Of a DNA stretch of 64,000 nt, positions 6,760 through 51,323 are shown piece after piece; position 1 is the first letter of the stretch; each line of letters begins with the position of its first letter. Where the stretch lies: positions 62,001 through 126,000 of the forward strand of contig JACVGT010000019.1 of the NCBI GenBank assembly GCA_018992685.1. The letters are read 5' to 3'. The position numbers and the translations under genes were made by a program. The notes below the pieces were generated by a model that had not been told where the DNA came from, did not search any database, and worked only from the letters and a program-made list of their open reading frames with translations. This stretch comes from Theionarchaea archaeon (GTDB lineage Archaea > Methanobacteriota_B > Thermococci > Methanofastidiosales > SZ-28-30).

Positions 6760-6845
6760 TGGTCTTCAATTCCGGACATACCCTCCCTGTCTGATATGGT
6801 TCCTGCCACATTCAGAGCCCGCTTACCAACCCTTAAAAGGAGTAC

Positions 6846-7595: not shown

Positions 7596-7634
7596 TCTTG
7601 GATTCCTGGATTGGCAATCGAACCTTGCTGTTGG

Positions 7635-8615
7635 CTAGGTCTGAGATCTGAGAACCTCATCAATGAGTGGTGTGCAGTCCAGTGCCAGCTCAGGGTACTC
7701 TTCAATAAATGTCTTTGAGGGAACAGTATTGGTCACCAGTAAGTCCTCTCCCAGAATCCCTACGAGTCTTCTCAGATTGTCTTCTCCAGTCATTAGCGGG
7801 AGAGCATGTGTCGCAGCAAAGGCAAACCGGCTGGCACCCTTTTTCAATGTGTGTTCTCTGGTCTTCAAGAGCGTCCCTCCTGTAAGAATAAGATCATCCA
7901 CAAAGGCCAGGGCTTTCCCTTCTACAGGAACGTCTCCCAGTAGTGTACTCTCAACTGAACTCGTCCTCTTCTTCCCAAATCCATCCAGTCCCAGACGGAC
8001 CTGCGCCCCCTCATCAGGAGCCACGAGTTCAGACCCGGGAAATCTCCTCCCGATCTCTTCAAGGAGGCGAGGCACCATTGACAGATCAATGACCTTCCCC
8101 GTGGCTTTCAGCGTGTTGAACCACTCCACGTTCCAGGGGTGGGGATCTATGATGCCCACTCGAGGACAGTAGTTCAGGAACAGGTCAAGGGCATTCCGTG
8201 CTGAATTACACTCACCTGTTCTCACTGCATGATCCTGCTTTCCTGAAGGCATGCAGGTAAGAAGCAGAAAGACGTCCCTGGGATTCTCAAGGGGAGTATT
8301 CACATACCGCTTGTGACCCACTTCTTCTACTGAATGTGGATCGTTCAGCAGATGCAGGATCTGGAGGACTTCGAAGATTCGATCCTGAGTCGTGAATTTC
8401 TCCTGCTCCAATTCACCTGAATAGCTCCCTGACTGGATGACACACACGTTCTCGCCCTGAAGCTTTTCAATTTCCTCTATGCGTGTGTACAGATCACCAT
8501 TGTAAAAGAATCGTTTTCCATCATAGTTCAGCCCTGAAGTGAACACCTGATACCCCTTCTTTTCGAGGGGCGCTTTCAGATGCTCAGCCCCTGAAGCCAG
8601 AATGAGCTTCCACAT
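7635..8615 (-). CDS. Ribose-phosphate diphosphokinase-like (PRPP synthetase family) protein
   Basis: The product of about 326 residues follows the PRPP-synthetase plan in diverged form. It has an N-terminal half with a KQDHAVRTGE segment in the place of the usual RQD loop, then IIDPHPWN where DLH is normal, VAPDEGAQVR in place of sPDaGgv.R, a KKR segment, and a PRPP-binding loop FVDDLILTGGTLL. The final TNTVPSKTF matches the family end. True enzymes make PRPP from ribose 5-phosphate and ATP. The altered loops leave open a related substrate or a regulatory role. The ATG at 8615 has a GGTGA site that overlaps the stop of the M28 gene just upstream. Confidence 0.75.
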   Translation of the reverse strand: MWKLILASGAEHLKAPLEKKGYQVFTSGLNYDGKRFFYNGDLYTRIEEIEKLQGENVCVIQSGSYSGELEQEKFTTQDRIFEVLQILHLLNDPHSVEEVGHKRYVNTPLENPRDVFLLLTCMPSGKQDHAVRTGECNSARNALDLFLNYCPRVGIIDPHPWNVEWFNTLKATGKVIDLSMVPRLLEEIGRRFPGSELVAPDEGAQVRLGLDGFGKKRTSSVESTLLGDVPVEGKALAFVDDLILTGGTLLKTREHTLKKGASRFAFAATHALPLMTGEDNLRRLVGILGEDLLVTNTVPSKTFIEEYPELALDCTPLIDEVLRSQT

Positions 8616-8619
8616 TTTC

Positions 8620-10566: not shown

Positions 10567-10855
10567 AAAAAAAAATGAGGACTATGGCTTATAATCGTTG
10601 CGGTTTAAGCTGTGCAATAGCAGGAGCAGGAAATATGGTATTCCGGGAATCCCTGCCCTCAGAGATACTGTCTTTTCCTGGTAAGGAGATAGCACCATAG
10701 GCTACAGGGATGTGCTGCACGAAGGCAACTCCTTCCAGGCAGTGATACAGAAAAGAACCTGCTACTTTCCCTGCCTTGGAGAAAATAAAAGTAAAAATCG
10801 TTCCAGAATGGAACAATCGTCAGGTATCTTGTGCGAGTCTTTCGGTTCATCTCTC
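10567..10855. other. Intergenic region with M28 promoter
   Basis: A minus-strand TATA-like box (GATTATAAGCC at 10586-10596) sits 20-30 bases before the ATG at 10566. The rest of the region shows no gene I can support. Confidence 0.55.
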
Positions 10856-11650
10856 CTACGTGAGTGTTATCAGCCGTCCAATCCGTCCCACGCTGAGCTG
10901 GAGTACACCTCCATATGAATCCACGTACCCATTCTCGATTCGTACCCTGTCTCCAACTCCTGCCCAGCCTACCTGCTCATTCCAGAGGACGAGTACCACT
11001 CGGCCTGTATCATCCTTGAGAGCAGCATTACTGACACTGAGCGGTTCACCCCTCCGAGAACGTACAGGGCGAGGTTCTGACTTTTCCACGATCTCACCTT
11101 CAATTGTGACATTTTTCATGCCGACCCGTAGGTCCTGCACCTTTGTCATATCATACTGGTCGGATGGGTCCCTAACTAACTGATACCAGCGCCCCCTCCA
11201 TCCAGGCTCTCCGAATTCCCAGCCTATCTGGGTGAACCCCTGCTTCTCATAAAAGTTGGAGGTCCTCACATTCCACTCAGGAGTTCCCAACGTCCACAAT
11301 TTTACGTCAGGATGGATTTCCCAGAGAATCTCACATGCTCGCGTTCCTATACCCTGTCTGTGAACCTGGGGATCCACAAAGATGCGCTCCAGCACCCTGT
11401 GCGTTTTCCCCACAACACCCACCATGATGCCTCCCACGATAGTCTCATCCATCACGATCTTGAAGTAGTCTAGAAAACTCATGAACCGTACCTGCGCCTC
11501 CGGCGAATCGTAACCCGGAGGACCTCCCGGTTCAGGGCCTGGAGATCCCACTTCAATGTCTGTATGAAATGCTCTCTTACAGATATCTGCCAGAACAGCT
11601 GCATCTTCTTCCTGCGCCAATTCCAGCCGGACAGCCTTTTCTATCTCCAT
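10856..11650 (-). CDS. GNAT acetyltransferase fused to an OB-fold domain
   Basis: Residues 1-165 form a GNAT N-acetyltransferase, with the acetyl-CoA loop in RIFVDPQVHRQGIGTRACEIL and the fold-closing SNFYEKQGFTQIGWE. After a linker, residues about 175-264 (DLRVGMKNVTIEGEIVEKS ... ALKDDTGRVVLVLWNEQ ... VRIENGYVDSYGGVLQLSVG) are an OB fold of the archaeal single-strand-binding (RPA-like) kind. The fusion suggests acetylation of a nucleic-acid-bound target, or an enzyme steered by nucleic acid. The ATG at 11650 follows a strong GGAGGGAG site, so a longer reading from 11695 is less likely. The gene stands alone. Confidence 0.85.
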   Translation of the reverse strand: MEIEKAVRLELAQEEDAAVLADICKRAFHTDIEVGSPGPEPGGPPGYDSPEAQVRFMSFLDYFKIVMDETIVGGIMVGVVGKTHRVLERIFVDPQVHRQGIGTRACEILWEIHPDVKLWTLGTPEWNVRTSNFYEKQGFTQIGWEFGEPGWRGRWYQLVRDPSDQYDMTKVQDLRVGMKNVTIEGEIVEKSEPRPVRSRRGEPLSVSNAALKDDTGRVVLVLWNEQVGWAGVGDRVRIENGYVDSYGGVLQLSVGRIGRLITLT

Positions 11651-11847
11651 ACTTCTCTCCCTCCTTGAAGGTGCTGTTAAGAGATATTGTCTCATCTGGA
11701 TATCTCTTGCTGCATCCTATGTCTTCCTTCATCATCTTCTGCATGAAGAGATTCTTATAAAACTTGAGGTATTCCCTTCCGCGGCCAGTCCCTGTTCTCA
11801 GTCCCTTTTCCGCAACACAGACTCTCCTGCATGAAGGGTCCATACAT

Positions 11848-12960
11848 TCACGAACTGTCACCAGGTGGCTGCTTGTTACTGACGAGATACAACCCTGCGA
11901 AAATCAACAATAATATAGAAGGGAAAAATGACACATCAATGCACATGACAAAAACTGCCAGGACAATCGCATAGTACGGGAGGTTGCGTTGGTCTTTGAG
12001 AGCCTTCCTGTATAGGGTATTCAGCCCGGCACCAAAGAACCCCATCACTCCCAGTTCAAGAATGCCACCATCGAAAATCAGAGGCCCCATAATGGTGGAA
12101 GTGATATTACATGGATACCCAAACAGAAAAGGACCAATCACACTGGAAGAACTGAAATTCGACCATAACCCACCATGTGCAATGCCCCACCATCCTGCTT
12201 CGTGCACAATAGAATGTACGACGCCACAGGTGAAAGCTGAACGGTACAGGAGCAATTCCAGAGCATTGAATTTCCAGTCCTGGTACATCACACCGAGATA
12301 TCCCATGCCCACCACCAGCAGGAACAGGGGGACTGCTGAAACAACCATGTGACGAATCCTGATCTTGTCCAGCATATACAGAGATACAAAGACCACAAGT
12401 ATCAATTCCAGAATGTAAGCTCTGTAGGTAAATAATGATAGCAGAGCCAGAGCAGCCACAAAAGATAATCCTACCCTTTTCAGATCCCACTCTCTGGTCA
12501 TGAATGCCAGTCCCAGAAACACAAAAACATATCCTGCAATAAACACGATATTGACATTTGCCTGTCTCAATTCCGGGTCAAGAGCAGGGACTCCTTTCAG
12601 TACCAGCTGGGTCAAGATCAACACGATTCCAAGGGGAAAAAACCATTTCTTATCCAGACTCTGAATTGCTGCAAGAGAACCAATTGTCACAAAGGGCAAA
12701 ATGAGTCCGGGGAGGTGATATTCCTGATACGCGTAGAAGGTGGCCAGTACCACTGTTATGGCATAGTACAGGGTTCTGCTGTCTGGAAGGACTATCTGGC
12801 ATCCTGCTATATACCAAATGAGTCCCACGCCAACAAAGAGCACGGTCCGGGGATATAAGAAGAACCTGTCAGAAACATAGGAAAAACTCAGAACTCCAAT
12901 GACCGTGTACGCCACAAATCCAACGACAAAAATGTAGGGAGACACCAGCTTGTACTGCAT
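11848..12960 (-). CDS. Polytopic membrane protein, possible oligosaccharide polymerase-like
   Basis: The 370-residue protein has about eleven hydrophobic helices and few charged loops. A large loop region (about residues 225-290, with YRSAFTCGVVHSIVHEAGWWG and FLFGYPCNITSTIMGPLIFDGG) lies between late helices. This layout resembles O-antigen polymerase (Wzy)-like proteins of archaeal surface-glycan systems, but sequence identity in that group is low and there is no glycan gene cluster here. The ATG at 12960 lies 21-30 bases behind a TATA-like box, so the mRNA is probably leaderless. Confidence 0.6.
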   Translation of the reverse strand: MQYKLVSPYIFVVGFVAYTVIGVLSFSYVSDRFFLYPRTVLFVGVGLIWYIAGCQIVLPDSRTLYYAITVVLATFYAYQEYHLPGLILPFVTIGSLAAIQSLDKKWFFPLGIVLILTQLVLKGVPALDPELRQANVNIVFIAGYVFVFLGLAFMTREWDLKRVGLSFVAALALLSLFTYRAYILELILVVFVSLYMLDKIRIRHMVVSAVPLFLLVVGMGYLGVMYQDWKFNALELLLYRSAFTCGVVHSIVHEAGWWGIAHGGLWSNFSSSSVIGPFLFGYPCNITSTIMGPLIFDGGILELGVMGFFGAGLNTLYRKALKDQRNLPYYAIVLAVFVMCIDVSFFPSILLLIFAGLYLVSNKQPPGDSS

Positions 12961-12980
12961 GCACCATCACAGGGAGTACC

Positions 12981-12990
12981 TTTAAAATCT
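12981..12990 (-). promoter_or_regulatory. TATA-like box for the polytopic membrane protein
   Basis: On the minus strand this reads AGATTTTAAA, 21-30 bases before the ATG at 12960 and inside the end of the top6A gene. Confidence 0.5.
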
Positions 12991-14064
12991 TTACGGCAGG
13001 AAGTCCTTGTGCTCGATCTTCTCAGGAAGATACTCCTTTGCCACAAATTCAAGGCTCTTATTGGCCAGAGCCTGCTGCTCAATTCTCACTCCCAATTTCA
13101 AGCACAATTCCAGCTCTTTCTGCCATTTCTTATGTCTGAACCATTCGTAGGACTTCAGTTCCTTTATCCGTGACTTGTCAGTGTTTTTCAATTTCTCTGT
13201 CACTGAATGCAGCCCATACTGTTCAATGTCTCTCATGGTCATGCCCACGAATTTGGCATCCGGCACACTCAGTCGTTTGGAAAGGTATGCCAGATTCATA
13301 GACCCTTGTTTAATGGTGGAATAGATGTACCATCCATACGGGTCGCCATCAGTAAAGATGATAACAGGTAAGGTCCTCTCATAGTGTAATCGGTGTATCA
13401 GCCGTCTCACGCCCCGGGGAGCCTGACCCTGACAGGCAATGATGATTGCGCCATTATTCTGAGCGAATTTTTCCTCAATCAGTCGATCTGCCATGGCAGC
13501 AGTCTCTACCACCAGAATGTACTCTGCACTGACCTCAGGGAACTCAATATCTTCCACAGTACCAGGAACGGCCCATCCTCCCCTCCCCAGTCTGCTGGCA
13601 TTGAATTCATCACCATCATCTCGTATCACAATATCACCGTACATGTACCCGCGCCTGTCAGCCGTTAGATTGAGTTGCTCTCTCAGGAGATCAAGGGAGA
13701 CTTCAATGTCCTCAGCAATGGCATTGCTCTCGGTCTGATCATCAAACGTGTTCTCTCTCGATCCTGAAATACTGTGTTTCAGGGCATAGTACAGTTCACG
13801 AATGCCGGCATGCTTTCCTTCCTCCACCAGCCTCCTGCAGTAGCTGGCCACTAGCAACGTCTGCATGAACTTTCGTGTATGAGCCACATTCATGTAGTAT
13901 CTCTTGGAATGCTTGTCTCCCAGGACCAGCATTCTGCTGCTCTCGTCGAAACTGACATTACCCAATCCCCGTTGGGGAATCTTCATATAGGGACTTCTTC
14001 CCTTGTCAATCTGATCGTATACTGATAGCCCGAATTGTTCAAGGCTTTCTTCAATTTTCTTCAT
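12991..14064 (-). CDS. top6A: DNA topoisomerase VI subunit A
   Basis: This is the DNA-cleaving subunit of the archaeal type IIB topoisomerase, which relaxes and decatenates DNA together with subunit B. The winged-helix (5Y-CAP) domain has the catalytic tyrosine in [10 protein letters not shown]. The Toprim domain shows the acidic glutamate in [10 protein letters not shown] and the Asp pair in [10 protein letters not shown]. About 357 residues is normal for the family. A GTG at 14073 overlaps the top6B stop as GTGA; the ATG at 14064 has a better-placed GGAG and is used here. It is translated together with top6B. Confidence 0.97.
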
Positions 14065-37847: not shown

Positions 37848-38784
37848 ATGAAATCAATCGAAGACGCTGTCAGATTCAGGTATTTGAATATACGCACTGA
37901 CAGGTCACGAGCTATCCTGAAGATACAACACGTACTCATAGGCGCCCTGAGAGAGTTCCTCACAGAACATGGATTCTGCCAGATTCTGGCACCTGTGGTG
38001 GGTCCAGTTACTGATCCGGGTATCAGAGGGGCTGGCATCGTTCACTTTGATTTTTATGGAACGTCCTACGCCATTATGAGCAGTATGATTCTGTACAAGC
38101 AAATGGCTTTGGGCGCTTTTGAGAGCATTTTTTCTCTGTCACCCAATGTGCGGCTTGAGGAAGCATCCACCATTGACACCGGAAGGCATCTGGCTGAATT
38201 CTACCAGCTTGACCTTGAGTCTGCCAGGAAGAGTTGCCAGGAGATGATGGACCTGGGAGAAGGAATGATATGTCACTCTATGGACGCAATACGAGAATGC
38301 TCGGAGGAACTGGATACCCTGGGCAGACATCTTCCTTCTTTACACCCCCCCCTTCAAGAGGATAGCCCATAGAACACTTGAAGAACAGCTGTCCATACAC
38401 GGTGAAATACCGTTTGAGAAAGAATATGATCTTTCCAGGGCTTCTTCAGAACCATTTTGGATCTATGATTATCCTGTGGGGTCTCGAGGGTTTTACTACC
38501 TGGAAAAAGATGGGGTTCTCAAGTCCATGGATTTGATCATGCCTGAAGGGTTTGGAGAAGTCATCTCCGGGGGAGAACGAGAGGTTAGATATGAGGAAGT
38601 GAGAAGGCTCCTCACGAAAGAGGGAATTGCTGATGAGTACTCCTGGTATCTGGATATGTTGAAGGCAGGTGTCCCGCCTTCAGCAGGATTTGGGTTGGGC
38701 ATTGAACGGTTTACACGCTATGTGTGCGGGCTGGACCACATCTGGGAGAGTTCCCCCTTCCCAAAAGTTCCCGGTATTCCATAA
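37848..38784 (+). pseudogene. Archaeal asparagine synthetase (AsnRS paralogue), frameshifted
   Basis: The gene encodes a class II aminoacyl-tRNA-synthetase-like core without an anticodon-binding domain, like the archaeal asparagine synthetase related to AsnRS (AS-AR), which makes asparagine from aspartate and ammonia. Motif 2-like LSPNVRLEEASTIDTGRHLAEFYQLDLE is interrupted in the list here by function, with the second half in the first frame and motif 3 GFGLGIERFTRYVCGL in another. The first frame ends at 38372. A run of eight C at 38345-38352 shifts the reading; with seven C the protein would run through to 38784 at about 311 residues. Either an assembly error or a real mutation could explain it. 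Confidence 0.85.
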
Positions 38785-41655: not shown

Positions 41656-42168
41656 TCAGATAGGCTGAGAAGCCTCAATAGCCTCTCGGGCAAATTGGTC
41701 CTTCTTGCATGATATACAGTAAGATTCAATGTTGTTCCTGTCCTTATCAAGGAGTCCGACCTTTTCTATCTTCTTTCTGATCTCTTCCATGTGTCTCCTG
41801 GTAGTAATCACTTTCCCACATCCCTGACACAGGATAAGGTCATGTTCAATCTCATCATAGGACTCTGCCCTGTTTAAGGTGGCCATTTCAAACTTCTGGG
41901 TAAGGTTGATCCCCTCCCAGGGGCAGATATCCTGGCAGCTCCGGCAAAAAATGCACAACCCATGGTCGATTCTCATGGTCCTGGTCTTTTTCTCATCTAC
42001 AATGGTGATGGCCTTTGGGGGGCACACCGCAGCGCAGGCGCCGCACCCAACGCACTCATCGGTGAACTCTGTCCTCCCTCTGAATCCTTCAGGGGCTGGA
42101 GAAGGCTCAAACGGATATTTTACTGTAAAAGGTTTCTTAAACAAGGAAAATAGTGCTTCAAGTTCCAT
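41656..42168 (-). CDS. mbhN: Membrane-bound hydrogenase ferredoxin-type subunit MbhN
   Basis: The 170-residue protein has two [4Fe-4S] motifs (ECVGCGACAAVCPPKA and LCIFCRSCQDICPWEG) that relay electrons from ferredoxin to the hydrogenase small subunit. Two more Cys pairs follow (LILCQGCGK and SYCISCKKD) and may form a zinc site, as in other group 4 NuoI-like subunits. It is the last gene of the 15-gene operon. Its ATG overlaps the mbhM stop by one base (TAATG). Confidence 0.92.
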   Translation of the reverse strand: MELEALFSLFKKPFTVKYPFEPSPAPEGFRGRTEFTDECVGCGACAAVCPPKAITIVDEKKTRTMRIDHGLCIFCRSCQDICPWEGINLTQKFEMATLNRAESYDEIEHDLILCQGCGKVITTRRHMEEIRKKIEKVGLLDKDRNNIESYCISCKKDQFAREAIEASQPI

Positions 42169-43052
42169 TAAATCACCACCCTTACGAGATCAATGACTGC
42201 CAGAACCGCCATGTATTTCCAGAAGAAAACAAAACTCTGTTCTGTCTTCACCCTGGCTGAAATGACCTTGATAAAAATGAACAGGAGCCACAACAGCCCA
42301 CCAGTAATCAAGAACATCCACCAGTTCTGCCAGAAGAACAGGATAACTACCAGAGAGATCACCGTAAACACTTTGACCTGGTTGGAAAGGGTGAAAATTG
42401 CCAACCTGTACCCGGAGTACTCCACCAGAGGTCCTCCCAGAATTTCCTGTTCGGCTTCTGGTATGTCGAAGGGTTGCAACCCGATCTTGGCGGGTACAAT
42501 GCTCAAGAAGGCAATGCAGGCAAAGGGAAGCTGGTAGAACAACATGCCGTGAACTTCCTGGGCCTCAGCTATTCCTGTCAAGGAAAAACTGCCTGCCCTC
42601 ACTGCCACCGCCACAATGGAAATTGCCAGGGGCAGTTCATAGGCAAAGAGCTGGGTTACTTCTCTCGATCCTCCCACAGCGCCAAAGGGGCTGGCTGAAG
42701 AAAATCCTCCAACTGCCAGCATGATTGACGACATGTTCAGCACATAAATGACCACAATCACATCGCCAGCAAAGGACAGTCCCCACACCGGGAACAGCAT
42801 GGGCACCACCAGGATAGAAGCCAGAGCAATGATGGGAGCCCAGGTGAACAGAGCGCCCGCTTTCTCAGGCCTAACACTGTCTTTGGACAGTAACTTCACG
42901 AAATCATAGAAGGGCTGCAAAAATGGTGGGCCACGTCTGTTCTGCATGCGTGCTCTCACCTTTCGGTACATCCCTGCATACAGGAACGTCATCACCGAGG
43001 TGAATAACAGCCCCGGAATGATGAAAATCGAAATCAATGGATTGAGACTCAT
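42168..43052 (-). CDS. mbhM: Membrane-bound hydrogenase subunit MbhM (NuoH-like)
   Basis: The protein of about 294 residues has eight hydrophobic helices and the NuoH-type loops RRGPPFLQPFYDFVKLLSKD, SREVTQLFAYELPLAI and QPFDIPEAEQEILGGPLVEYSG. It anchors the hydrogenase arm in the membrane and couples electron transfer to the ion-pumping module. The ATG at 43052 comes four bases after the mbhL stop; a longer reading would overlap mbhL by some 60 bases. Confidence 0.93.
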   Translation of the reverse strand: MSLNPLISIFIIPGLLFTSVMTFLYAGMYRKVRARMQNRRGPPFLQPFYDFVKLLSKDSVRPEKAGALFTWAPIIALASILVVPMLFPVWGLSFAGDVIVVIYVLNMSSIMLAVGGFSSASPFGAVGGSREVTQLFAYELPLAISIVAVAVRAGSFSLTGIAEAQEVHGMLFYQLPFACIAFLSIVPAKIGLQPFDIPEAEQEILGGPLVEYSGYRLAIFTLSNQVKVFTVISLVVILFFWQNWWMFLITGGLLWLLFIFIKVISARVKTEQSFVFFWKYMAVLAVIDLVRVVI

Positions 43053-43056
43053 GATA

Positions 43057-44142
43057 TCACCTATCCGTACAGCAGAAACACGGGTCAATGCTTGCCAGCG
43101 TAATAGGAACGTCACCCAGGGTGTCCCCCTCCAGCATCACCGGGACTGCCTGTACATTGGCATATGTGGGGGCACGTATTTTCACCCGCTCAGGATAAAA
43201 GGTGCCGTTGGACCTGACATAGTGGAACACTTCTCCGCGAGGAGCTTCGTATCTTCCAACTCCTTCGCCAGGTGGGATTTCTTTCACTGGAACTGCTATT
43301 TCCTTTCCCTTCAACCCCTTGAGAGCTGCTACTGCCTGTCTGATGATTTTCACTGATTCGAAAACCTCAAGGAGCCTGACTTTTGCCCTGGCCATATTAT
43401 CTTCTTCATCCAGGACGATTTTCTCGAAGTCCACTCTATCATATGCAAGGTGTGGATCATCCTTCCTCACATCAACAGCATAGCCTGACGCTCGGGCCAG
43501 AGGACCTACTGTACACAGCCTCCGTGCATCGTCTCTGGGCAGTGTCCCAGTTCCTACCAGTCGTGCTCTGATGGTCCTGTTTCTCAGGAAAGAATCAATG
43601 TAGTGTTCTGTCCTGCGCTCCACAACCTCGAGAGCGGTCAGCAGACCCGGGATCTGCTTTTCAGTGATGTCCTTCCTGCATCCTCCAACAGTATTCCATG
43701 CGTAATGGTTCCTGTTACCCGTTATTGTTTCAAGCTGATCCAGAACGAATTCTCTGTCTCTCCACGTGTACATGAACAGTGTTTCAATCCCTATTATTTC
43801 AGCAGCTATTCCCGCCCACAACAAGTGGGAGTGAATCCTTTCCAGCTCAGCAATGATCATCCTCGAGTATTCAGCTCTTTCAGGCAGTGTGACACCAGCA
43901 ATGTCCTCTACTGCCTGTGTGAATGCCAGAGGATGGGACATGGAACAGATGCCGCAGATTCGTTCCACCAGTAGTATGTCCTGTTCATAGGTTTTTCTTT
44001 CTGCAAGCTTCTCTACGCCTCTGTGGTTGTATCCCATGGTAATATCTACGTTGATGACTTTTTCTCCTTCTGCATACACTTTCAAGCGCTCAGGTTCTGC
44101 CAGAGCCAGGTGCTGGGGTCCAAATTGTACAACGACATCCAT
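43057..44142 (-). CDS. mbhL: [NiFe] hydrogenase large subunit MbhL (group 4)
   Basis: The 361-residue protein carries the catalytic nickel-iron site. The N-terminal ligand motif is RICGICSMSH and the C-terminal motif is DPCFCCTDR, so all four ligand cysteines are present, unlike in the sulfur-reducing Mbx/Mbs relatives. Other family blocks are GYNHRGVEKLAERKTY, HLLWAGIAAEIIG and RNHYAWNTVGGCRKD. The reading frame stops directly after the final arginine, so there is no C-terminal extension for a maturation peptidase to remove. An AGGAGG site precedes the ATG. It should reduce protons with electrons from MbhN and MbhJ. Confidence 0.95.
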   Translation of the reverse strand: MDVVVQFGPQHLALAEPERLKVYAEGEKVINVDITMGYNHRGVEKLAERKTYEQDILLVERICGICSMSHPLAFTQAVEDIAGVTLPERAEYSRMIIAELERIHSHLLWAGIAAEIIGIETLFMYTWRDREFVLDQLETITGNRNHYAWNTVGGCRKDITEKQIPGLLTALEVVERRTEHYIDSFLRNRTIRARLVGTGTLPRDDARRLCTVGPLARASGYAVDVRKDDPHLAYDRVDFEKIVLDEEDNMARAKVRLLEVFESVKIIRQAVAALKGLKGKEIAVPVKEIPPGEGVGRYEAPRGEVFHYVRSNGTFYPERVKIRAPTYANVQAVPVMLEGDTLGDVPITLASIDPCFCCTDR

Positions 44143-44143
44143 T

Positions 44144-44563
44144 TCAATACCTCCTCAAAGGATATTCTGTATAGTCATCAGGAAGGAACAGGTGCCGGGG
44201 ATCGGGGTGATTGACCACAATGATACCCATCATTTCCATGGCTTCCCTCTCGTACCAGGCTGCAGATGGGTAGAAATCAGATATGGTCTCAATCCTGGGA
44301 TTTCCCCGTGGAGCAGACGTCTTCAGGCTCACCTGCAGGGGGGTAATCTCGAAGTGATAGACCAGTTCCAGCTCTTCGCCCAGGTCCACAGAAGAGATCA
44401 CTGAGAGGTGGCCTCCCATATCCTGAAAGAGCTTGACTGCCTGTCTGTGGGATCCATTCTGCACCTTGATAAATACTCTGTTTCTCCGCGTCGGGGTAAC
44501 CTCCAGCACATTCTCCCTGAGATGAGTTCTCAACATTTCTTTCAACTCCGGAACAGTGACCAT
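44144..44563 (-). CDS. mbhK: Membrane-bound hydrogenase subunit MbhK (NuoC-like)
   Basis: The 139-residue protein shows the NuoC/30-kDa subunit features: LSVISSVDLGEELELVYHFE, SDFYPSAAWYEREAMEMMGI and NHPDPRHLFLPDDYTEYPLR. It is a structural subunit of the peripheral arm. Its ATG follows the mbhJ stop directly, and the AGGAGG site for mbhL lies in its last codons. Confidence 0.92.
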   Translation of the reverse strand: MVTVPELKEMLRTHLRENVLEVTPTRRNRVFIKVQNGSHRQAVKLFQDMGGHLSVISSVDLGEELELVYHFEITPLQVSLKTSAPRGNPRIETISDFYPSAAWYEREAMEMMGIIVVNHPDPRHLFLPDDYTEYPLRRY

Positions 44564-44992
44564 TTACTCACCCCACAGAGCATTCAGTGCCGTGACAACC
44601 CCGTGCAGAATGGCCTGAGGCCTCGGTGGACATCCCGGAATGTATGCAGCCACCGGAATTACCTTGTCCGCAGGGCCATATGATGCATAGGTCTCATTGA
44701 AGATGCCTTTGGTGATGGCACAGGAACCAATGGCTACTGCAGCCTTTGGGTCCATGGTTTGCTCATATAATCGTTTCAGTACATCCCTTGTCTTTAGTGT
44801 AATAATTCCAGTCACTACGATGATATCTGCATGACGAGGATTTGGCTTTAAGACTCCTCCAAACCGTTCCACATCAAACCGGGGGGCAAGAGCGGCCAGA
44901 ACTTCGATATCGCAGTTATTGCATGACCCGCAGCTCACGTGAAGCAGCCAGGGGGATTTCTTCCTGCAGTAATTCACCATTTTATCCAGCAT
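44564..44992 (-). CDS. mbhJ: [NiFe] hydrogenase small subunit MbhJ
   Basis: The 142-residue protein is the NuoB-like small subunit that holds the proximal [4Fe-4S] cluster. The cysteine ligands lie in HVSCGSCNNCDIEV, GSCAITKG and IPGCPPRPQAI. The ATG at 44992 overlaps the mbhH stop (TAATG), so a start at 45007 is unlikely. Confidence 0.94.
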   Translation of the reverse strand: MLDKMVNYCRKKSPWLLHVSCGSCNNCDIEVLAALAPRFDVERFGGVLKPNPRHADIIVVTGIITLKTRDVLKRLYEQTMDPKAAVAIGSCAITKGIFNETYASYGPADKVIPVAAYIPGCPPRPQAILHGVVTALNALWGE

Positions 44993-46809
44993 TAAACCAC
45001 CCTCCACAAATACACGATCACCACAACAAGAGTGAATACTACCCAGAACACGTAGTTCTGCAGCAGTCCGCTGTGTTCAGATTTCAGGTACCGGTAGAAT
45101 CGGCCAAGCGGAGCCATGATACCATAGTACAGGTTTGAACCACCTATATTGACATAGTAGTCTTCTTCCCCACAGATATATACGTCGTCTCTGGCATCAG
45201 GCTTCTTGTCTGATTTGTCTGATTCTGGCGCCAACGCTTTCCCTGTCCTTAGGGTCAAGAACACAAAGGCCATGAGAAACAGCAGTACCAGCGAGATCAT
45301 GACAGGACTCCAGTACGCATATTCAAGGTTCAACCCCAGGTTGTAGGCACCCACGTCCACCGGGACACCCAGGAGGGAAGAGGACGCTTTCCCTACCAGC
45401 GTCAGAGGCAGCCTGGGGTAGACGCCAAATATGATGCATGTTACCGCAAGGATACCCATGGGGACCTTCATCAGGAAGGGAACATCTTTCACCTCTCTGA
45501 ATTCCTCTTTGAGCTGGCCCAGGAATGCAGAGTCCAGAGCCTTCAAGAACGAGCTCAAGGTGCCAACACTGGCCAGGATCAGGACTACGGTGAAAAAGTA
45601 GTACTCCTTCTGGTAGGTACCCACGTAAAGCATCCACTTGCTGACGAACCCATTGAAGGGAGGGACTCCTGAAATTGCCAGCGCCCCTATGAAAAAGCAG
45701 AACGTGGTAAAAGGCATCTTCTTGGAAAGTCCACCCATCCTGTCAAGGTCCCACGTGCCAATCCGGTAGAAAACAGCCCCTGCACACAGGAAGAGGAGCC
45801 CTTTGTATACGGCATTGTTCATGAGATGGAACAGCCCTCCTGAGACTCCCAGAGGTGTCGCCAGTCCGATACCTGCTATAATATAGCCGAGCTGGGAGAC
45901 AGCGTGATAGGACAGCAGCCGTTTGAAGTCGTGCTGCACCAGAGCCATCATGACACCCACGAAGGCTGTAATCACGCCGAAGGTTGCAATCATAGGGCTC
46001 GTGGCATCCATGGCATCAAACACCACGTACAGGACACGGGCAAGAAGATAGACACCAGCCACCTTGAAGGTACCTGCCAGGAGCATGCCCGTGGGAGTGG
46101 GAGCTGCAGGGTAACTGTCAGCAGCCCAGAAATGGAGCGGTACAATCCCTGCCTTGAATCCGAATCCCACAACAAAGAATGCCAGAGCAACAATGTCCAC
46201 AGATGACATGACGATCTTTGACGTGAGGTCCACCATGTTCAGAGTCTGGTACTGGGCATACAGCAGTGCCACTCCAAACAGGATAAACGTGGATACGACA
46301 CCACCCAACGTCAACAACTTGAAAGCAGCTTCCGCTGAATCCCATTTTCTGTGATATGACACCAGAGCATAGGTGGAAACTGACATGATCTCAAAGAAGA
46401 CGTACAGGTTAAACATGTCCCCTGTGAGGACGACACCTGAAATTCCTGCAATCTGGAGACAGAACAGCGTGTAAAACTTTCCTCTGCGGGGATCTTTCCT
46501 CATATAGGGGACAGCATACAGTGCAGAGAAAGAAGCCATTCCTGCTGCCACGCACGCTGCAAAGAGGGATAGTGCGTCAACATACAAGGTAATACCATAG
46601 GGGGGGCTCCTGTTACCCAGTGCATAGACAATCACATCACCAGAGAGAACCTGCGATATCATGGTCAGTCCGCATACCAGGCTCCCTACAAACGCCAGGA
46701 AGGGAATGTAATCCCGCAGCCGGCCTGACCCCAGTCCTACAAGGGGAGTTATGAACGCTGCAGACAGAGGCAGCAAAACCATGAAAATGGGTGCATGTTC
46801 AGTAATCAT
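44992..46809 (-). CDS. mbhH: Mrp-type antiporter subunit MbhH, apparently fused to MbhI
   Basis: The 605-residue protein belongs to the NuoL/M/N-MrpD family of ion-pumping subunits, with typical blocks NLYVFFEIMSVSTYALVSYH, GFKAGIVPLHFWAADSYPAAPTP, LLSYHAVSQLGYIIAGIG and SGVPPFNGFVSKWMLY. Known archaeal MbhH proteins are about 500 residues long. Here about 100 residues are added: one helix, a soluble loop (ICGEEDYYVNIGGSNLYYGI) and another helix. This matches the expected shape of the separate MbhI, which is missing between H and J in this operon. It should move Na+ or H+ during proton reduction. Confidence 0.92.
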   Translation of the reverse strand: MITEHAPIFMVLLPLSAAFITPLVGLGSGRLRDYIPFLAFVGSLVCGLTMISQVLSGDVIVYALGNRSPPYGITLYVDALSLFAACVAAGMASFSALYAVPYMRKDPRRGKFYTLFCLQIAGISGVVLTGDMFNLYVFFEIMSVSTYALVSYHRKWDSAEAAFKLLTLGGVVSTFILFGVALLYAQYQTLNMVDLTSKIVMSSVDIVALAFFVVGFGFKAGIVPLHFWAADSYPAAPTPTGMLLAGTFKVAGVYLLARVLYVVFDAMDATSPMIATFGVITAFVGVMMALVQHDFKRLLSYHAVSQLGYIIAGIGLATPLGVSGGLFHLMNNAVYKGLLFLCAGAVFYRIGTWDLDRMGGLSKKMPFTTFCFFIGALAISGVPPFNGFVSKWMLYVGTYQKEYYFFTVVLILASVGTLSSFLKALDSAFLGQLKEEFREVKDVPFLMKVPMGILAVTCIIFGVYPRLPLTLVGKASSSLLGVPVDVGAYNLGLNLEYAYWSPVMISLVLLFLMAFVFLTLRTGKALAPESDKSDKKPDARDDVYICGEEDYYVNIGGSNLYYGIMAPLGRFYRYLKSEHSGLLQNYVFWVVFTLVVVIVYLWRVV

Positions 46810-47156
46810 TCTTTCAACCCCCTGATTTCTGTAATGTCCAGGGTGCCATAATGTCGGTAGAGGACAATAGCTATACTCAAGGCAAGAGCAGTGACACTGA
46901 GCCCGATGACAATGCTGGTCAGCACCAGTGCCTGGGGCAAGGGATCTACCATGACAGCAGTTTCAGAGGTTACGTCAGGCAGGACCACAATGGGAGGTGA
47001 CCCGCCCTGAACGTACCCTGTGGCAATAAGGAAATATTGAACCGCATAGTCCATCAGACTGAGTCCCACCACGATTTTGATGAGATTCTTCTTTACCATG
47101 ACAGCATACAATCCAATGACAAATACAATAGTGCAGACGATATAGTCGATATTCAT
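46806..47156 (-). CDS. mbhG: Membrane-bound hydrogenase subunit MbhG (MrpC/NuoK-like)
   Basis: The 116-residue, three-helix protein has the NuoK/MrpC pattern (IGLYAVMVKKNLIKIVVGLSLM, NY.L.ATGYV-like stretch QYFLIATGYVQGGSPP, DPLPQALVLTSIVIGLSVTALALS). It belongs to the ion-translocating module. It overlaps mbhF and mbhH by four bases each. Confidence 0.92.
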   Translation of the reverse strand: MNIDYIVCTIVFVIGLYAVMVKKNLIKIVVGLSLMDYAVQYFLIATGYVQGGSPPIVVLPDVTSETAVMVDPLPQALVLTSIVIGLSVTALALSIAIVLYRHYGTLDITEIRGLKE

Positions 47157-47581
47157 GGGGGACTCCTCCTCATGTTGTTGAAAATGGCTGTCAGCTCTGT
47201 CCCCACTTTAACACCAATTGCAATGTAGATCGGACCCAGAATCCCTGCGCTGAGCAACGTTCCTGGTTGTCCCAGTCCAACAGCATTCCACAGGAAATTT
47301 CCTCCTTTCAGTATGCCAATACACCCGAGGCCAATGAAACACAAGGCTGCTACACTTTCGAGAGCAGTCATCACTGATTCGGGAATTCTCAGTGTGCCAA
47401 ATCCCAGGTAGAGCAGGATGATGCTTGAAGCAATGATGGTACCTCCCTGAAACCCACCTCCAGGTGTCAGATGGCCATGAACAAAGATATAGACCCCATA
47501 CACAAAAGCCAGGGGGAAAACCACGCGGGTTATGCTCTTCACAATGACACTGGGTTCGCGGGGGTCCTCATTCTTTTTCAT
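47153..47581 (-). CDS. mbhF: Membrane-bound hydrogenase subunit MbhF (MrpB-like)
   Basis: The protein of about 142 residues has four helices and the MrpB signatures SIITRV-like VIVKSITRVVFPLAFVYGVY, IFVHGHLTPGGGFQGGTIIA and FLWNAVGLGQPGTLLSAG. The ATG at 47581 overlaps the end of mbhE by 14 bases; a longer reading from 47686 would run through mbhE and is rejected. It is part of the Mrp antiporter module. Confidence 0.9.
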   Translation of the reverse strand: MKKNEDPREPSVIVKSITRVVFPLAFVYGVYIFVHGHLTPGGGFQGGTIIASSIILLYLGFGTLRIPESVMTALESVAALCFIGLGCIGILKGGNFLWNAVGLGQPGTLLSAGILGPIYIAIGVKVGTELTAIFNNMRRSPP

Positions 47582-47849
47582 TGTCTTCCCTCCGCTTCCT
47601 CCAGAATAGTGCAGCCACTCCTGTCGTCGCAGTGAACAGGACAGTGACTTCTCCCAGCGTGTCATATCCTCTATAGTCCAGCACAATATTCGTCACCAGG
47701 TTGGTGGCTCCGGCTTCTTCAAGTCCGTCTTCCAGGTAGTGCTCTCCGACCCCGATAGAATGGTCTCCAAACCTGTTGACACCAGTAACTGTGTAGATCA
47801 GAACTGACATCAGTAATCCCAGCAAGAGATAGCTCAGTGCACGCTTCAT
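47568..47849 (-). CDS. mbhE: Membrane-bound hydrogenase subunit MbhE
   Basis: The 93-residue protein has two helices and the conserved block TNIVLDYRGYDTLGEVTVLFTATTGV, which matches the MrpA/MrpB junction part found in MbhE. It is a small membrane subunit of the antiporter module. It overlaps mbhD by four bases. Confidence 0.88.
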   Translation of the reverse strand: MKRALSYLLLGLLMSVLIYTVTGVNRFGDHSIGVGEHYLEDGLEEAGATNLVTNIVLDYRGYDTLGEVTVLFTATTGVAALFWRKRREDNEKE

Positions 47850-48082
47850 TCTTCTGACCTCCGGGTATGGCTAATGGCTAAAAGCAGGATAAATGTGGAC
47901 AGAGCAGCCCCAATAGCAACTTCTGTCATGGCTACATCTGGAGCCTGCAGCTGATAGAAGAGTAAAGCCAGGCACAGGCTGCACATCCCCAGAGACACGG
48001 CTGTATATATCAGATCTTTGAACTCTACGGCCACCAGCGCACTGGCAGCAAAGAGCACCAGCAAGATGAGATGTGAGATCAT
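47846..48082 (-). CDS. mbhD: Membrane-bound hydrogenase subunit MbhD (MrpA C-terminal-like)
   Basis: The 78-residue, three-helix protein carries the pattern VAVEFKDLIYTAVSLGMCSL followed by YQLQAPDVAMTEVAIGAALST, typical of the DUF4040 part of MrpA and of MbhD. It overlaps both neighbours by four bases. Confidence 0.9.
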   Translation of the reverse strand: MISHLILLVLFAASALVAVEFKDLIYTAVSLGMCSLCLALLFYQLQAPDVAMTEVAIGAALSTFILLLAISHTRRSEE

Positions 48083-48405
48083 TCAAACTCCTCCTTGAAC
48101 GCGTCATAACTCCCGATTTTCATGCGGGTTCCTGATCTGTATGCAGCCCGGGCTATTGCATGGGCAGATGTTGGATTTCCCAGGACAATGAAGACGATGA
48201 TAATGACAGCTTTGATGGCCACTTCTCCCTGCATGAGGAGTGCCACACCCAGAAGCGTGCACATGGCACCCAGCGTGGTGCATTTGGTGGCTGCATGCAT
48301 CCGGGTGAACATGTCGGGAAGTCGAAGCAATCCAATAGCACCCACCAGGAGAAAGAAGGTGCCTATTGCGATGAGAATATCTGCGATGAGAGTTCCTGCC
48401 ATCAT
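48079..48405 (-). CDS. mbhC: Membrane-bound hydrogenase subunit MbhC (MrpG-like)
   Basis: The protein of about 108 residues has three helices and the MrpG/PhaG motif GAIGLLRLPDMFTRMHAATK. The ATG at 48405 overlaps the mbhB stop as ATGA, so the longer frame from 48489 is not used. It is part of the antiporter module. Confidence 0.92.
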   Translation of the reverse strand: MMAGTLIADILIAIGTFFLLVGAIGLLRLPDMFTRMHAATKCTTLGAMCTLLGVALLMQGEVAIKAVIIIVFIVLGNPTSAHAIARAAYRSGTRMKIGSYDAFKEEFE

Positions 48406-48665
48406 AATCCTCCCTCCAAGTAACGTGCAATGGCAATAACAGCAATAAAACTCAGCAGCGCGTAGATAATTGCCACATCTATCAACCACGTTCTATTATA
48501 GACAACGCCAAGAACAACCAGGAGAGCAGTAGTAATGGTGGTAGCAGCATCCAGAGCAATGACCCGGTCCCCTGCTGTAGGACCTTTCACGGCTCTCAAG
48601 AATGAAAGCAGAAATGCGAAAGAAATGACAAATACTGCACCCTGCAGAAAAGAGAGTTCCATCAT
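48402..48665 (-). CDS. mbhB: Membrane-bound hydrogenase subunit MbhB (MrpF-like)
   Basis: The 87-residue, three-helix protein has the MrpF core AVKGPTAGDRVIALDAATTI and the closing ALLSFIAVIAIARYLEGG. It overlaps mbhA and mbhC by four bases each. Confidence 0.92.
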   Translation of the reverse strand: MMELSFLQGAVFVISFAFLLSFLRAVKGPTAGDRVIALDAATTITTALLVVLGVVYNRTWLIDVAIIYALLSFIAVIAIARYLEGGL

Positions 48666-49153
48666 GAAAACACCTTGTTCAAGAATCTCATGAATCGGCC
48701 AGTAATCATCTCTGCAGCTTCCTGTGGGTTATACGTTTGAATGTTCAGCCAGTGCACATAGAAATTAGTGCCCACAACGTCCAGCGTAAGGGTCCCGGGA
48801 GTCAGAGTAATTGAATTTGCCAGAAGAGTCCTTCCGTAGTCTGACTGCAGGGATACAGGTACCCGGACGATTCCTGGGTTTATGGGCATTCTCGGATGGA
48901 GCACTCGATAGGCCACATCAAGGTTGGATTTGATGATCTCCCAGAGCAGGGCAGGGATATACACGAGGAAGAAGACCACTCTCCTGGGATGAAGGCTCAC
49001 AGCAGGGAACAGGTTCCTGGACAGGACTGCCACGATGAAAGCTGCAAGCAACCCCACTGCAAGAGGAGGATACCCCTGTTCCTGGATTTCAGACCAGGTC
49101 AGAAGAACCCACAGGATCAACGTTGCGATGAATGCAGAGATACATTGCTTCAT
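48662..49153 (-). CDS. mbhA: Membrane-bound hydrogenase subunit MbhA (MrpE-like)
   Basis: The 163-residue protein has two or three N-terminal helices and the MrpE blocks LLWEIIKSNLDVAYRVLHPRMP, NPGIVRVPVSLQSDYGRTLLANSITLTPGTLT and HWLNI. It starts the Mrp half of the hydrogenase. A GAGGTGA ribosome site lies in the four-base gap after the mini-CooS stop. Confidence 0.92.
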   Translation of the reverse strand: MKQCISAFIATLILWVLLTWSEIQEQGYPPLAVGLLAAFIVAVLSRNLFPAVSLHPRRVVFFLVYIPALLWEIIKSNLDVAYRVLHPRMPINPGIVRVPVSLQSDYGRTLLANSITLTPGTLTLDVVGTNFYVHWLNIQTYNPQEAAEMITGRFMRFLNKVFS

Positions 49154-49157
49154 AGGT

Positions 49158-50336
49158 TCACCTCAGAACTTCCACCACTTTGGTAGAGTCCATTTCCACT
49201 CTAATACCCGCGTCAGCCAGTTGATTCCGTACTGAAGGGGTTATAAACGGCATTGTTCCCATGATCACAGGGATCTTTTGTGACGCCAGTGCAAGAGCAG
49301 CTGTCAACATCCTGGGGTCTCTCCACCTGGGCATGAGGACCGTGAGGGCTCGTATCCCCAGGAGTTTTGCCGGCTCGCAGCATCCCGCATTGATCACACA
49401 GGGGACCTGGAATTCGTTCATGAGAGCACATTGATGATCAGGATGTTCCAGCAGGCCACATGTCAAGTTCAGAACCATGAATTTCTGGCTGATCAACTGG
49501 TGAACGATGGCATCGAGGTTCCAGGTGCTCTTTCCAGACGCACAGCCCATGATTGCCACCACTCCCGCAATGAGACCAGAATCCACCGCCTTGTTGAGTG
49601 TTTCAGTGTCCACAGGATAACCCACTGTTGCACGTCGAGGAGTAACCTTTCTGAACGATGCCTGGTCCCTCCTGGAGAAATTTTCAACAGCAGTCTCACA
49701 GGCAGCAGCCACATCTCCACCTTGATACACATAGTCTATCATGTCGCCCGCTTCTTCAAGAATGTCAATTCCACCCAGCAGGGGAATCCCGAAATTCGAG
49801 GCAGCTTCCGCCCCTTCACACAGGGCACCTACAAGGTTAATCCCTCTGGCAGTGCGTCCCCTGGCCAGATCCCTCATTTTCTGACTTCTGGCCTGCTTTA
49901 TTATGTCAGGAGAGTATACAGTGGTCACAATGTTCACTGCGTCCTTCTGTAAGACTCCAAGGCCAGACTCAACATTCCGAGGTTTTTTCTGATCTGACTG
50001 CCACTGGCCAACCAGCGTCTGCGAAGGTTCCAGAATGGAACCACTGGCTTTCACCAGATCCTGAATAGTAACCCCTGCCTCATGGGTGTGAATCATCCTA
50101 TCTAGTGAAAGAGGCACAGAGATTCCCACTCCATAATCAGTCAATCCCTTGAGGACATGCAGTCCCAGGTTCACAACATTCATACCTTCTGCATCAATCC
50201 CACAGGCCCCCACGTGGGGTTCTTCATCAAAAGGGTTTACAATACATGGCCCTAAATCACAATACGTACACATCATACCGGCAGAAGCCAGCTCATTCTG
50301 AGGCTTCTGAGCCTGTAATCGATCCATTGTTTTCAT
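49158..50336 (-). CDS. Shortened CO-dehydrogenase-like (mini-CooS) protein
   Basis: The 392-residue protein aligns by eye with anaerobic Ni-CO dehydrogenase CooS (normally about 630). Near the N-terminus Cys23-x2-Cys26-x4-Cys31-x13-Cys45 matches the B-cluster spacing exactly, but the two D-cluster cysteines are missing. C-cluster-like cysteines appear in GALCEGAE (173), AIMGCASGKS (265), VLNLTCGLL (293) and INAGCCEPAK (319). The usual C-cluster histidine block is replaced by VYSPDII, and the VDxQC cysteine by MIDYVYQ. The alignment is from memory of the family. It is co-translated with a CooF-like ferredoxin (ATGA overlap) and lies just upstream of the hydrogenase genes. The reaction is unproven. 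Confidence 0.85.
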   Translation of the reverse strand: MKTMDRLQAQKPQNELASAGMMCTYCDLGPCIVNPFDEEPHVGACGIDAEGMNVVNLGLHVLKGLTDYGVGISVPLSLDRMIHTHEAGVTIQDLVKASGSILEPSQTLVGQWQSDQKKPRNVESGLGVLQKDAVNIVTTVYSPDIIKQARSQKMRDLARGRTARGINLVGALCEGAEAASNFGIPLLGGIDILEEAGDMIDYVYQGGDVAAACETAVENFSRRDQASFRKVTPRRATVGYPVDTETLNKAVDSGLIAGVVAIMGCASGKSTWNLDAIVHQLISQKFMVLNLTCGLLEHPDHQCALMNEFQVPCVINAGCCEPAKLLGIRALTVLMPRWRDPRMLTAALALASQKIPVIMGTMPFITPSVRNQLADAGIRVEMDSTKVVEVLR

Positions 50337-50797
50337 GCCTTTCCTCTCCTCTCTTTCATGATCTGTGAAAACTCACCATATACGAGAGCATTGGTGGGGC
50401 AGGCACGGACACATGCGGGTCCTCCTACATTCCTGCACAGGTCACACTTTACCATTATCTGTCCACGGGAATCAGGTTCAATGATTCCAATGGGACAGGC
50501 CACACTGCACGATCTGCACCCGATACACAGACCATCATCGATAACCACGATGCCATCGTCTCCCTTTTCAATGGCGTCCACCGGGCAGGCTTCCATGCAG
50601 GGAGGAACCTCACAGTGACGGCAGCTGAGCACAACAGTCTGTGTATTATCACCCTTCAGGAAAATCCGAGTCTTGGGAAGAAGAGGTGCAGTAAGAGCCT
50701 GGTATACCGTGTCTGCATGCTTCCATGCCATGGAACATGCTACTTCACAATTGCGGCAAGCCACACATCGCTCTGAATCATAATAAAGTGCTTTCAT
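50333..50797 (-). CDS. CooF-like ferredoxin with four [4Fe-4S] motifs
   Basis: The 154-residue protein has four cysteine clusters: CVACRNCEVAC, CRHCEVPPCMEAC, CIGCRSCSVAC and CDLCRNVGGPACVRAC, 16 cysteines in all. It belongs to the CooF/HydN/HycB group, which passes electrons between an oxidoreductase (CO or formate dehydrogenase) and a hydrogenase. It is the first gene of the operon, behind a TATA-like box, and overlaps the mini-CooS gene by four bases. By position it should connect the mini-CooS to the Mbh module. Confidence 0.92.
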   Translation of the reverse strand: MKALYYDSERCVACRNCEVACSMAWKHADTVYQALTAPLLPKTRIFLKGDNTQTVVLSCRHCEVPPCMEACPVDAIEKGDDGIVVIDDGLCIGCRSCSVACPIGIIEPDSRGQIMVKCDLCRNVGGPACVRACPTNALVYGEFSQIMKERRGKA

Positions 50798-50820
50798 TCG
50801 GGAACCCCTTCTGGTGCTAC

Positions 50821-50830
50821 CTTTTAAATT
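50821..50830 (-). promoter_or_regulatory. TATA-like box for the CooF-mini-CooS-Mbh operon
   Basis: The minus strand reads AATTTAAAAG, 24-33 bases before the ATG at 50797. It is the only clear promoter seen for the whole 9.1-kb gene group. Confidence 0.6.
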
Positions 50831-51278
50831 TTACGCATGAAAACACATGTCCTCCGTGGACCCCCATGTCTCCCCTCTCATCGGGCAATAGTATCCTAGA
50901 ATCTGTATTTATCGTGTGGATGTGCCTTGTCAAATCCATGGTACCTCCTCACAGCCAGGTAGCCCACGCTGCTTCTGTATCTTGCCAGGCTATCGATTTC
51001 AGCACAGACAATGATCTGGAAAAGTGTCAACGAAAGAAGAGAAAGCATTCTCCTGGGTGTGAAAGATTACGATACGATTCCTGGGTTGAAAGGTATTGCC
51101 TGTTCCCGCCCCAGGTTCGACAGCATGCCACGGATTATCAGTATCTGTAGAACCCAACTCCTGAACGTGGGTAGAGAATGGTTACGAGCTTCTTTCCCTC
51201 AAGAAGTATGACTACTCCTCTTTCAGTCTCAGCTGGGCGATCACTCATAGGGCAGGCCTCGCACCCTGACCGGGGAAA
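50831..51278. other. Intergenic region between the hydrogenase operon and the cyclase gene
   Basis: About 450 bases carry no recognisable gene. A 66-codon plus-strand frame near 51011 has no family features, and I do not call it. Regulatory sites for the redox operon might lie here. Confidence 0.4.
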
Positions 51279-51304: not shown

Positions 51305-51323
51305 AATAACGCTAAGAGTTATT
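51305..51323 (+). promoter_or_regulatory. Short inverted repeat in the cyclase leader
   Basis: AATAAC and GTTATT are perfect inverted copies separated by seven bases. The hairpin or operator would fall at the start of the predicted leader. Confidence 0.4.

Follow-up and report, generated by a model that had tools for sequence, protein, structure and literature searches.

An Mrp-Mbh hydrogenase operon of Theionarchaea headed by genes for a CooF-type ferredoxin and a degenerate carbon monoxide dehydrogenase scaffold

The Codh-Mrp-Mbh cluster of Thermococcus onnurineus (PMC4731540) and other Thermococcales (also CODH-Mch-Mnh3) combines CooF, a carbon monoxide dehydrogenase (CODH) and Mrp-Mbh hydrogenase modules in one gene cluster. 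It is the nearest relative in kind of the operon described here, which is located in a 64-kb stretch (the window) of one contig, JACVGT010000019.1, of the 3.03-Mb genome of an uncultured archaeon from sediment, a member of the Theionarchaea in a phylum that includes the Thermococcales. The operon consists of 15 minus-strand genes, running from position 50797 down to 41656 of the window, and likewise contains genes for CooF, a CODH-fold protein and a complete set of Mrp-Mbh subunits. In both systems MbhN carries a CxxC...CxxC extension, and their MbhL subunits are 43–46% identical. However, the Thermococcales cluster possesses a full-length catalytic CooS, CooC, a fusion of the K and L subunits and another order of the hydrogenase and Mrp genes, whereas the window operon has a CODH subunit of 392 residues without the catalytic ligands, no CooC, separate K and L subunits, the Mbh gene order and a deep branch of its own. 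The operon can be regarded, from its sequence, as a variant of the trimodular family of CODH- or formate dehydrogenase-linked Mrp-Mbh complexes with a non-catalytic-looking CODH-fold subunit, and the hydrogenase most probably receives its electrons through a docked arm that consists of CooF and this short CooS-like protein.

Two other systems resemble parts of the complex. The membrane-bound hydrogenase (MBH) of Pyrococcus furiosus (6CFW) contains the same subunits in the order A–N, but it is fed by free ferredoxin, and the cysteine-quartet extension is missing from its MbhN; in the window operon, by contrast, the genes for CooF and the CODH-fold protein stand ahead of the hydrogenase genes, and MbhH and MbhI, the latter a separate protein in Thermococcales, are fused. 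The E. coli formate hydrogenlyase FHL-1 (7Z0S/7Z0T) and the archaeal Mfh clusters share with the window operon a CooF homolog (HycB), an MbhN of the HycF type and the proposed mode of docking. Their input enzyme is a molybdopterin formate dehydrogenase and not a CODH-fold protein, and FHL-1 has no Mrp module.

Small or altered CODH-like proteins have been described as well. The mini-CooS of Thermosinus (Techtmann 2012; assigned to clade G by Inoue 2022) is also small, but it has the complete cluster motif (PMC8776680), which is incomplete in the window protein. The name mini-CooS, which the sequence-only reading of the window had used, belongs to the Thermosinus protein and needs qualification here. 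CooS-V (CODH-V) of Carboxydothermus and the class III hybrid-cluster proteins (HCPs) show, as does the protein of the window, a CODH fold with altered active-site ligands; they differ in being full-length, in other ligand losses (Cys295 to Glu) and in not belonging to a hydrogenase operon. CooS-V keeps the CODH scaffold with one ligand exchanged, contains an Fe-S-O cluster and has no activity with CO (PMC9311411). An unusual input module was likewise proposed from sequence for a group 4 hydrogenase of Saganbacteria, which is accompanied by Mrp, CooF, AsrAB and a Mo-oxidoreductase (PMC6349859), although its input subunits are unrelated and the lineage is bacterial.

CooF and the short CODH-fold protein

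The first gene of the operon encodes a CooF/HycB-type polyferredoxin of 154 residues (50333..50797, minus strand, as are all genes of the operon; Pfam Fer4_11, 8.3e-18). The count of 16 cysteines corresponds to four [4Fe-4S] motifs, and its matches in the PDB are HycB4/HycB3 of HDCR and HycB of the E. coli FHL; in the CooF tree it sits on a long branch, and the tree is not resolved. The second gene encodes the short CooS-like protein (49158..50336; Pfam Prismane, 1.8e-22; TIGR01702, 1e-25), which scores 90 bits with TIGR01702 against a cut-off of 478. The full-length CODHs aligned with it comprise about 590–670 residues. The short protein lacks the stretch that bears the ligand Cys333 and a large part of the helical domain that lies between B-cluster and first Rossmann domain.

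The ligands were compared by alignment to Thermococcales CODHs, with the numbering and ligand roles of Carboxydothermus hydrogenoformans CODH-II. The B-cluster cysteines (C23, C26, C31, C45) are kept. The D-cluster is lost, its positions being occupied by Asn14 and Met22. Four of the six C-cluster ligands are retained (Cys173, Cys265, Cys293 and Cys320, equivalent to Cys295, Cys446, Cys476 and Cys526), while His261 is replaced by Tyr and Cys333 is deleted. Both catalytic residues are exchanged as well, His93 for Tyr and Lys563 for Arg. The ligand losses and the four retained cysteines of the C site are the same in the two Theionarchaea species. These losses confirm the earlier statement that the CODH in the leading position of the operon is replaced by a small, ligand-poor form. 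Nor does the site resemble that of an HCP: the positions of CODH His261, Cys295 and Cys333 hold His, Glu and Cys in HCPs, but are Tyr, Cys and a deletion here, and no HCP model was reported for the protein in the NCBIfam search.

The AlphaFold model of the short protein (pLDDT 75, pTM 0.74; residues 1–44 are weakly modelled) has the CODH fold, as it matches the Desulfovibrio vulgaris CODH (6b6v_A) with Z 25.5 over 352 residues at 2.8 Å; the corresponding value for a class III HCP is Z 23.6. The protein is 86% identical to its copy in the sister species, and its dN/dS (omega) of 0.067 falls within the 0.016–0.091 spanned by the other genes of the operon. This value led to rejection of the possibility that it is a pseudogene or a decaying passenger. 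By its sequence and model, the protein is a CODH scaffold under strong purifying selection and not a CO dehydrogenase.

The sister species, a Theionarchaea metagenome-assembled genome (JACVGW010000098) and the only other species of the genus in the collection, shows the same gene order, with 14 genes 85–97% identical; of CooF only an end of 41 residues is present, as the edge of the contig interrupts the gene. The operon is therefore present in both species of the genus (2/2). The short CooS-like proteins of Theionarchaea form one clade (support 96/100) with those of four Methanofastidiosales relatives, which are about 30% identical, have different gene surroundings and adjoin no Mbh genes; no MbhN match was found at E 1e-12 in the genomes of these four relatives. 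The expected co-occurrence with Mbh thus holds for the genus, but for none of the four short proteins of the relatives. In one relative, of the NM3 family (G003:C21, 4906-9552), the short protein has only the B-cluster and one C-site cysteine, and its gene diverges from those for a [NiFe] hydrogenase of the soluble type and for the maturation protease of that enzyme. Full-length CooS is found in other families of the order. In a scan of the genome contigs with narrow peptide patterns, the sister species and four genomes of the Methanofastidiosia type were the only ones detected, and protein searches covered this phylum alone; nothing was found in IMG/VR or among plasmids. Two large, recent surveys of CODHs leave out proteins of fewer than 400 residues (PMC8776680; PMC13056359), so that the short family would be missed by design. 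No paper on it was found in the literature search, and the family is likely to be undescribed.

The short CooS-like gene is the only prismane/CODH-family gene in the window's assembly. CdhA, CdhC and CdhD/E were not found in this assembly, which is 91% complete, and one assembly gap could explain this; the sister species has CdhA, the alpha subunit of CODH/acetyl-CoA synthase, and CdhC. No CooC is present in the operon, but a stand-alone CooC-type ATPase, 46% identical to Thermococcus CooC, is encoded elsewhere in the window's genome (C8:82239; 9210-10046 of the fetched stretch), so the genome as a whole does not lack a protein of this type. The ATPase is located in an assembly without any complete CODH. 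The question raised earlier, whether the genome lacks a full-length cooS elsewhere, is answered in the affirmative for the assembly, while its incompleteness, the CdhA of the sister species and the CooC-type ATPase limit what the absence means for the organism.

The cysteine-quartet extension of MbhN

MbhN (41656..42168), with 170 residues and two [4Fe-4S] motifs, has a C-terminal extension with the motif C114-x2-C117-x33-C151-x2-C154. The extension of E. coli HycF carries C117, C120, C155 and C158 in the arrangement CxxC-x34-CPxC; in the FHL structure it touches HycB, the CooF homolog, and faces FdhF (PMC9474812). In a sequence search MbhN aligns with HycF (7z0s_F, 5.7e-19) over residues 14–157. 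HycF (7z0t_F) is also the sole strong match of the MbhN model (Z 10.4, 128 residues), as opposed to Z 2.8 for MbhN of the P. furiosus MBH, the low confidence of the model (pLDDT 55) making this structural match corroborative only.

Hydrogenase clusters fetched from Thermococcales served for comparison. All four cysteines are invariant in MbhN of the 11 aligned CODH-linked (Mch) and Mo-enzyme/CooF-linked (Mfh) clusters, the Mo-enzyme partners of the latter having been verified by Pfam, and the quartet is also present in one aligned Mch-type cluster that lacks a CODH. It is missing from the partner-less Mbh clusters, from the genome's own Ehb-like complex and from the Methanofastidiosum complexes examined. 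Among 115 genomes of the phylum, the best matches of the window MbhN are those encoded about 7 kb from full-length CODH genes. The hydrogenase of the window thus bears a feature of partner-docked complexes, and CooF and the short CooS-like protein would be its natural partners.

Two features of the Thermococcales clusters may be added. The CODH-less Mch-type cluster (G085:C10, 5023-14641) has the MbhN quartet, yet no CODH or CooF gene occurs in the 19 kb fetched. Thermococcales genomes also contain two Mbh-type clusters in tandem, the second of which has a large subunit ending in DPCMCC and a small-subunit motif CNAC.

Electron input to the hydrogenase

The presence of the short protein in the CooS slot of an operon under selection, together with the HycF-like extension of MbhN, makes electron input through CooF and the short protein likely. 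The short protein would be an adaptor for the entry of electrons and not a new catalyst, a role suggested by the retained B-cluster, the lost catalytic residues and the natural ability of CODHs to exchange electrons with ferredoxins and CooF. Electrons would enter the short protein from a donor of low potential, for which reduced ferredoxin, or an oxidoreductase of peptide or acid breakdown that depends on ferredoxin, is most likely. Within the protein they would pass through the B-cluster and possibly through a cluster rebuilt on the four cysteines of the former C site. They would then be transferred to the four [4Fe-4S] clusters of a bound CooF, to the two clusters of MbhN, to one cluster of MbhJ and to the NiFe site of MbhL, where H2 would be formed, with the Mrp subunits exchanging Na+ and H+. 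The part of the path that runs from CooF to the NiFe site follows the homology to FHL. The full description, in which a dedicated docked arm, composed of CooF and a degenerate subunit with the CODH scaffold, takes the place of the landing site for free ferredoxin, stands at about an even chance.

Several points weigh against this description. The arrangement is known in a single genus, from two genomes. The four C-site cysteines, three of which are lost in the distant short relatives, are more than a pure adaptor would strictly require; they could hold either an ordinary [4Fe-4S] cluster, as in an adaptor, or an open cluster, as in a catalyst. One Mo-enzyme-linked type (Mfh_c) retains only the first cysteine pair of the MbhN extension. 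In trees, MbhL and MbhM form a deep branch of their own beside the Mch/Mfh and Mbh groups, while the MbhN core groups weakly with Mbh (90/96), which leaves a common ancestry of the docking mode undemonstrated. The separate, deep branching of MbhL and MbhM gives no support to a recent horizontal gain of a Thermococcales Mch cluster either. It is conceivable that the CooC-type ATPase loads nickel into some CODH-like protein, and free ferredoxin could still feed the complex directly.

Catalysis by the short protein on a substrate other than CO, in which the former C site would hold a modified Fe-S or Fe-S-O cluster and feed the hydrogenase via CooF, is possible but doubtful. The equivalents of Cys295, Cys446, Cys476 and Cys526 are kept in both species under strong purifying selection, in complexes of the CODH, Mo-enzyme and FHL types CooF is usually paired with a catalytic subunit, and the CooC-type ATPase would fit such a protein. 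Precedents exist in CooS-V, with its Fe-S-O cluster and no CO activity (PMC9311411), and in the HCPs, which share the fold (Z 23.6 for class III). Yet both of these reduce oxidised nitrogen species and work at potentials that are too high to support H2 evolution; in the short protein the ligands His261 and Cys333 are lost along with both catalytic residues, in an operon devoid of substrate-specific genes. A new catalytic input module, in which a non-nickel cluster on the four cysteines oxidises an unknown low-potential substrate and drives the ion-pumping hydrogenase through CooF, is unlikely. The sequence-only reading had proposed that electrons from an unknown substrate enter through the short CODH-like protein. 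The entry through CooF and the short protein is likely, whereas the unknown substrate is possible though unproven; since the equivalents of His261, Cys333, His93 and Lys563 are gone, an adaptor that receives its electrons from a soluble donor has at least the same likelihood.

The same losses, found in both species together with that of the D-cluster, make it highly improbable that the protein is a minimal CODH and the complex still oxidises CO, in spite of a gene order and partners like those of CO-fed hydrogenases (PMC4731540), the CODH fold and the ATPase of the CooC type. The TIGR01702 score far below its cut-off and an operon without CooC point the same way, and CO oxidation was rejected as a likely function. 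The gene set and order A–N, which are those of ferredoxin-fed Mbh clusters, as well as the weak grouping of the MbhN core with Mbh, would agree with a standard Mbh that is fed by ferredoxin. CooF and the short protein would then be either passengers or assembly factors, or else redox regulators that control access to the complex. The last of these roles recalls the proposal of the FHL authors that the metal site of HycF regulates docking (PMC9474812). This explanation is quite unlikely, as the MbhN extension marks partner-docked clusters and the two leading genes are translationally overlapped, conserved and not decaying. The docked arm with an adaptor agrees best with these features.

Hydrogenase subunits, genome context and implications

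The identities of the subunits were assigned by Pfam and NCBIfam profile matches and agree with those given previously from the letters alone. The two input genes are followed by MbhA (MrpE/MnhE, 48662..49153; PF01899, 1.9e-42), MbhB (MrpF, 48402..48665; PF04066, 2.2e-18), MbhC (MrpG, 48079..48405; PF03334, 2.2e-28), MbhD (47846..48082; PF13244, 1.1e-18), MbhE (47568..47849; PF20501, 6.7e-12), MbhF (MrpB, 47153..47581; PF04039, 5e-23) and MbhG (MrpC, 46806..47156; PF00420, 5.4e-26). MbhH, an MrpD-like antiporter subunit of 605 residues (44992..46809; PF00361, 7.8e-62; 6cfw_H, 4.2e-91), is fused to MbhI, for its residues ~498–589 match separate MbhI proteins (E 5e-7); with this fusion the Mrp-Mbh set is indeed complete, as had been stated.

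The hydrogenase module comprises the small subunit MbhJ (44564..45007; PF01058, 2.7e-27), MbhK (30-kDa/NuoC-like, 44144..44563; PF00329, 1.6e-26), the large subunit MbhL of 361 residues (43057..44142; 6cfw_L, 1.8e-81) and the NuoH-like membrane anchor MbhM (42168..43052; PF00146, 2.8e-65), followed by MbhN. Alignment shows all four NiFe ligands of MbhL, C63, C66, C355 and C358, forming both CxxC pairs, and no C-terminal tail; the MbhJ cysteines are C29 and C32, two residues apart, C96 and C126. The related sulfur reductase MBS keeps only two of the four NiFe cysteines, and features that distinguish it from hydrogenases have been defined (PMC7684303). By these, the MbhL cysteines and the Mbh-type cysteine spacing of MbhJ indicate a hydrogenase, and an MBS-type sulfur reductase was rejected. 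The single MrpD-like subunit, the fused MbhI and the full Mrp set are likewise those of Mbh; the MbhN of ferredoxin-fed Mbh, however, has no cysteine quartet, which is present here.

The genes are tightly packed, as claimed earlier, with gaps of no more than 5 bases or overlaps of at most 16 bases after refinement of the starts; in-frame ATG starts were chosen for MbhC, MbhF and MbhM from the reading frames. A BRE/TATA-like element, AAAATTTAAAAGG (50820..50832, minus strand), is the sole one that the minus strand shows from 41.6 to 51.4 kb, and this motif evidence is in agreement with the single promoter that had been suggested. It is located ~29 nt upstream of the cooF ATG, a spacing that suits a leaderless archaeal transcript. 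The operon is flanked by a convergent radical SAM gene (ending at 41629) and a divergent DacZ-like gene (starting at 51322). Searches of the window for RNA and tRNA genes found nothing. Elsewhere in the window (37848-38784, plus strand), two open reading frames in different frames read as halves of one class II synthetase-like protein of the AsnA/AspRS type. Eight consecutive C at ~38340 lie close to the break between them, which makes a frameshift or an assembly error likely.

Theionarchaea are considered to have lost Mcr and Mtr and to have retained Ehb (PMC9635834). The MCR gamma subunit was not found in the window's genome, which agrees with this loss. A second group 4 hydrogenase, Ehb-like and with all NiFe cysteines, is encoded on the same contig ~58 kb upstream of the window (C15:625-7924), and is probably the retained Ehb. 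Contig C1 of the genome carries genes of a soluble [NiFe] hydrogenase with a NuoF-like gene and a molybdopterin formate-dehydrogenase-like gene (6527-14001 of the fetched stretch), which may form a bifurcating formate/hydrogen complex.

The cysteine quartet of MbhN provides a sequence mark that largely separates partner-docked from partner-less Mbh-type hydrogenases in the phylum examined, and that can be checked in any genome. The diversity of respiratory hydrogenases is attributed to exchanges of the enzyme, a CODH or a formate dehydrogenase, that attaches to a common CooF-type adaptor. In the Theionarchaea operon the slot of the CODH is filled by a degenerate CODH under strong selection, which may represent an adaptor stage in the evolution of the input arm or point to a new substrate.

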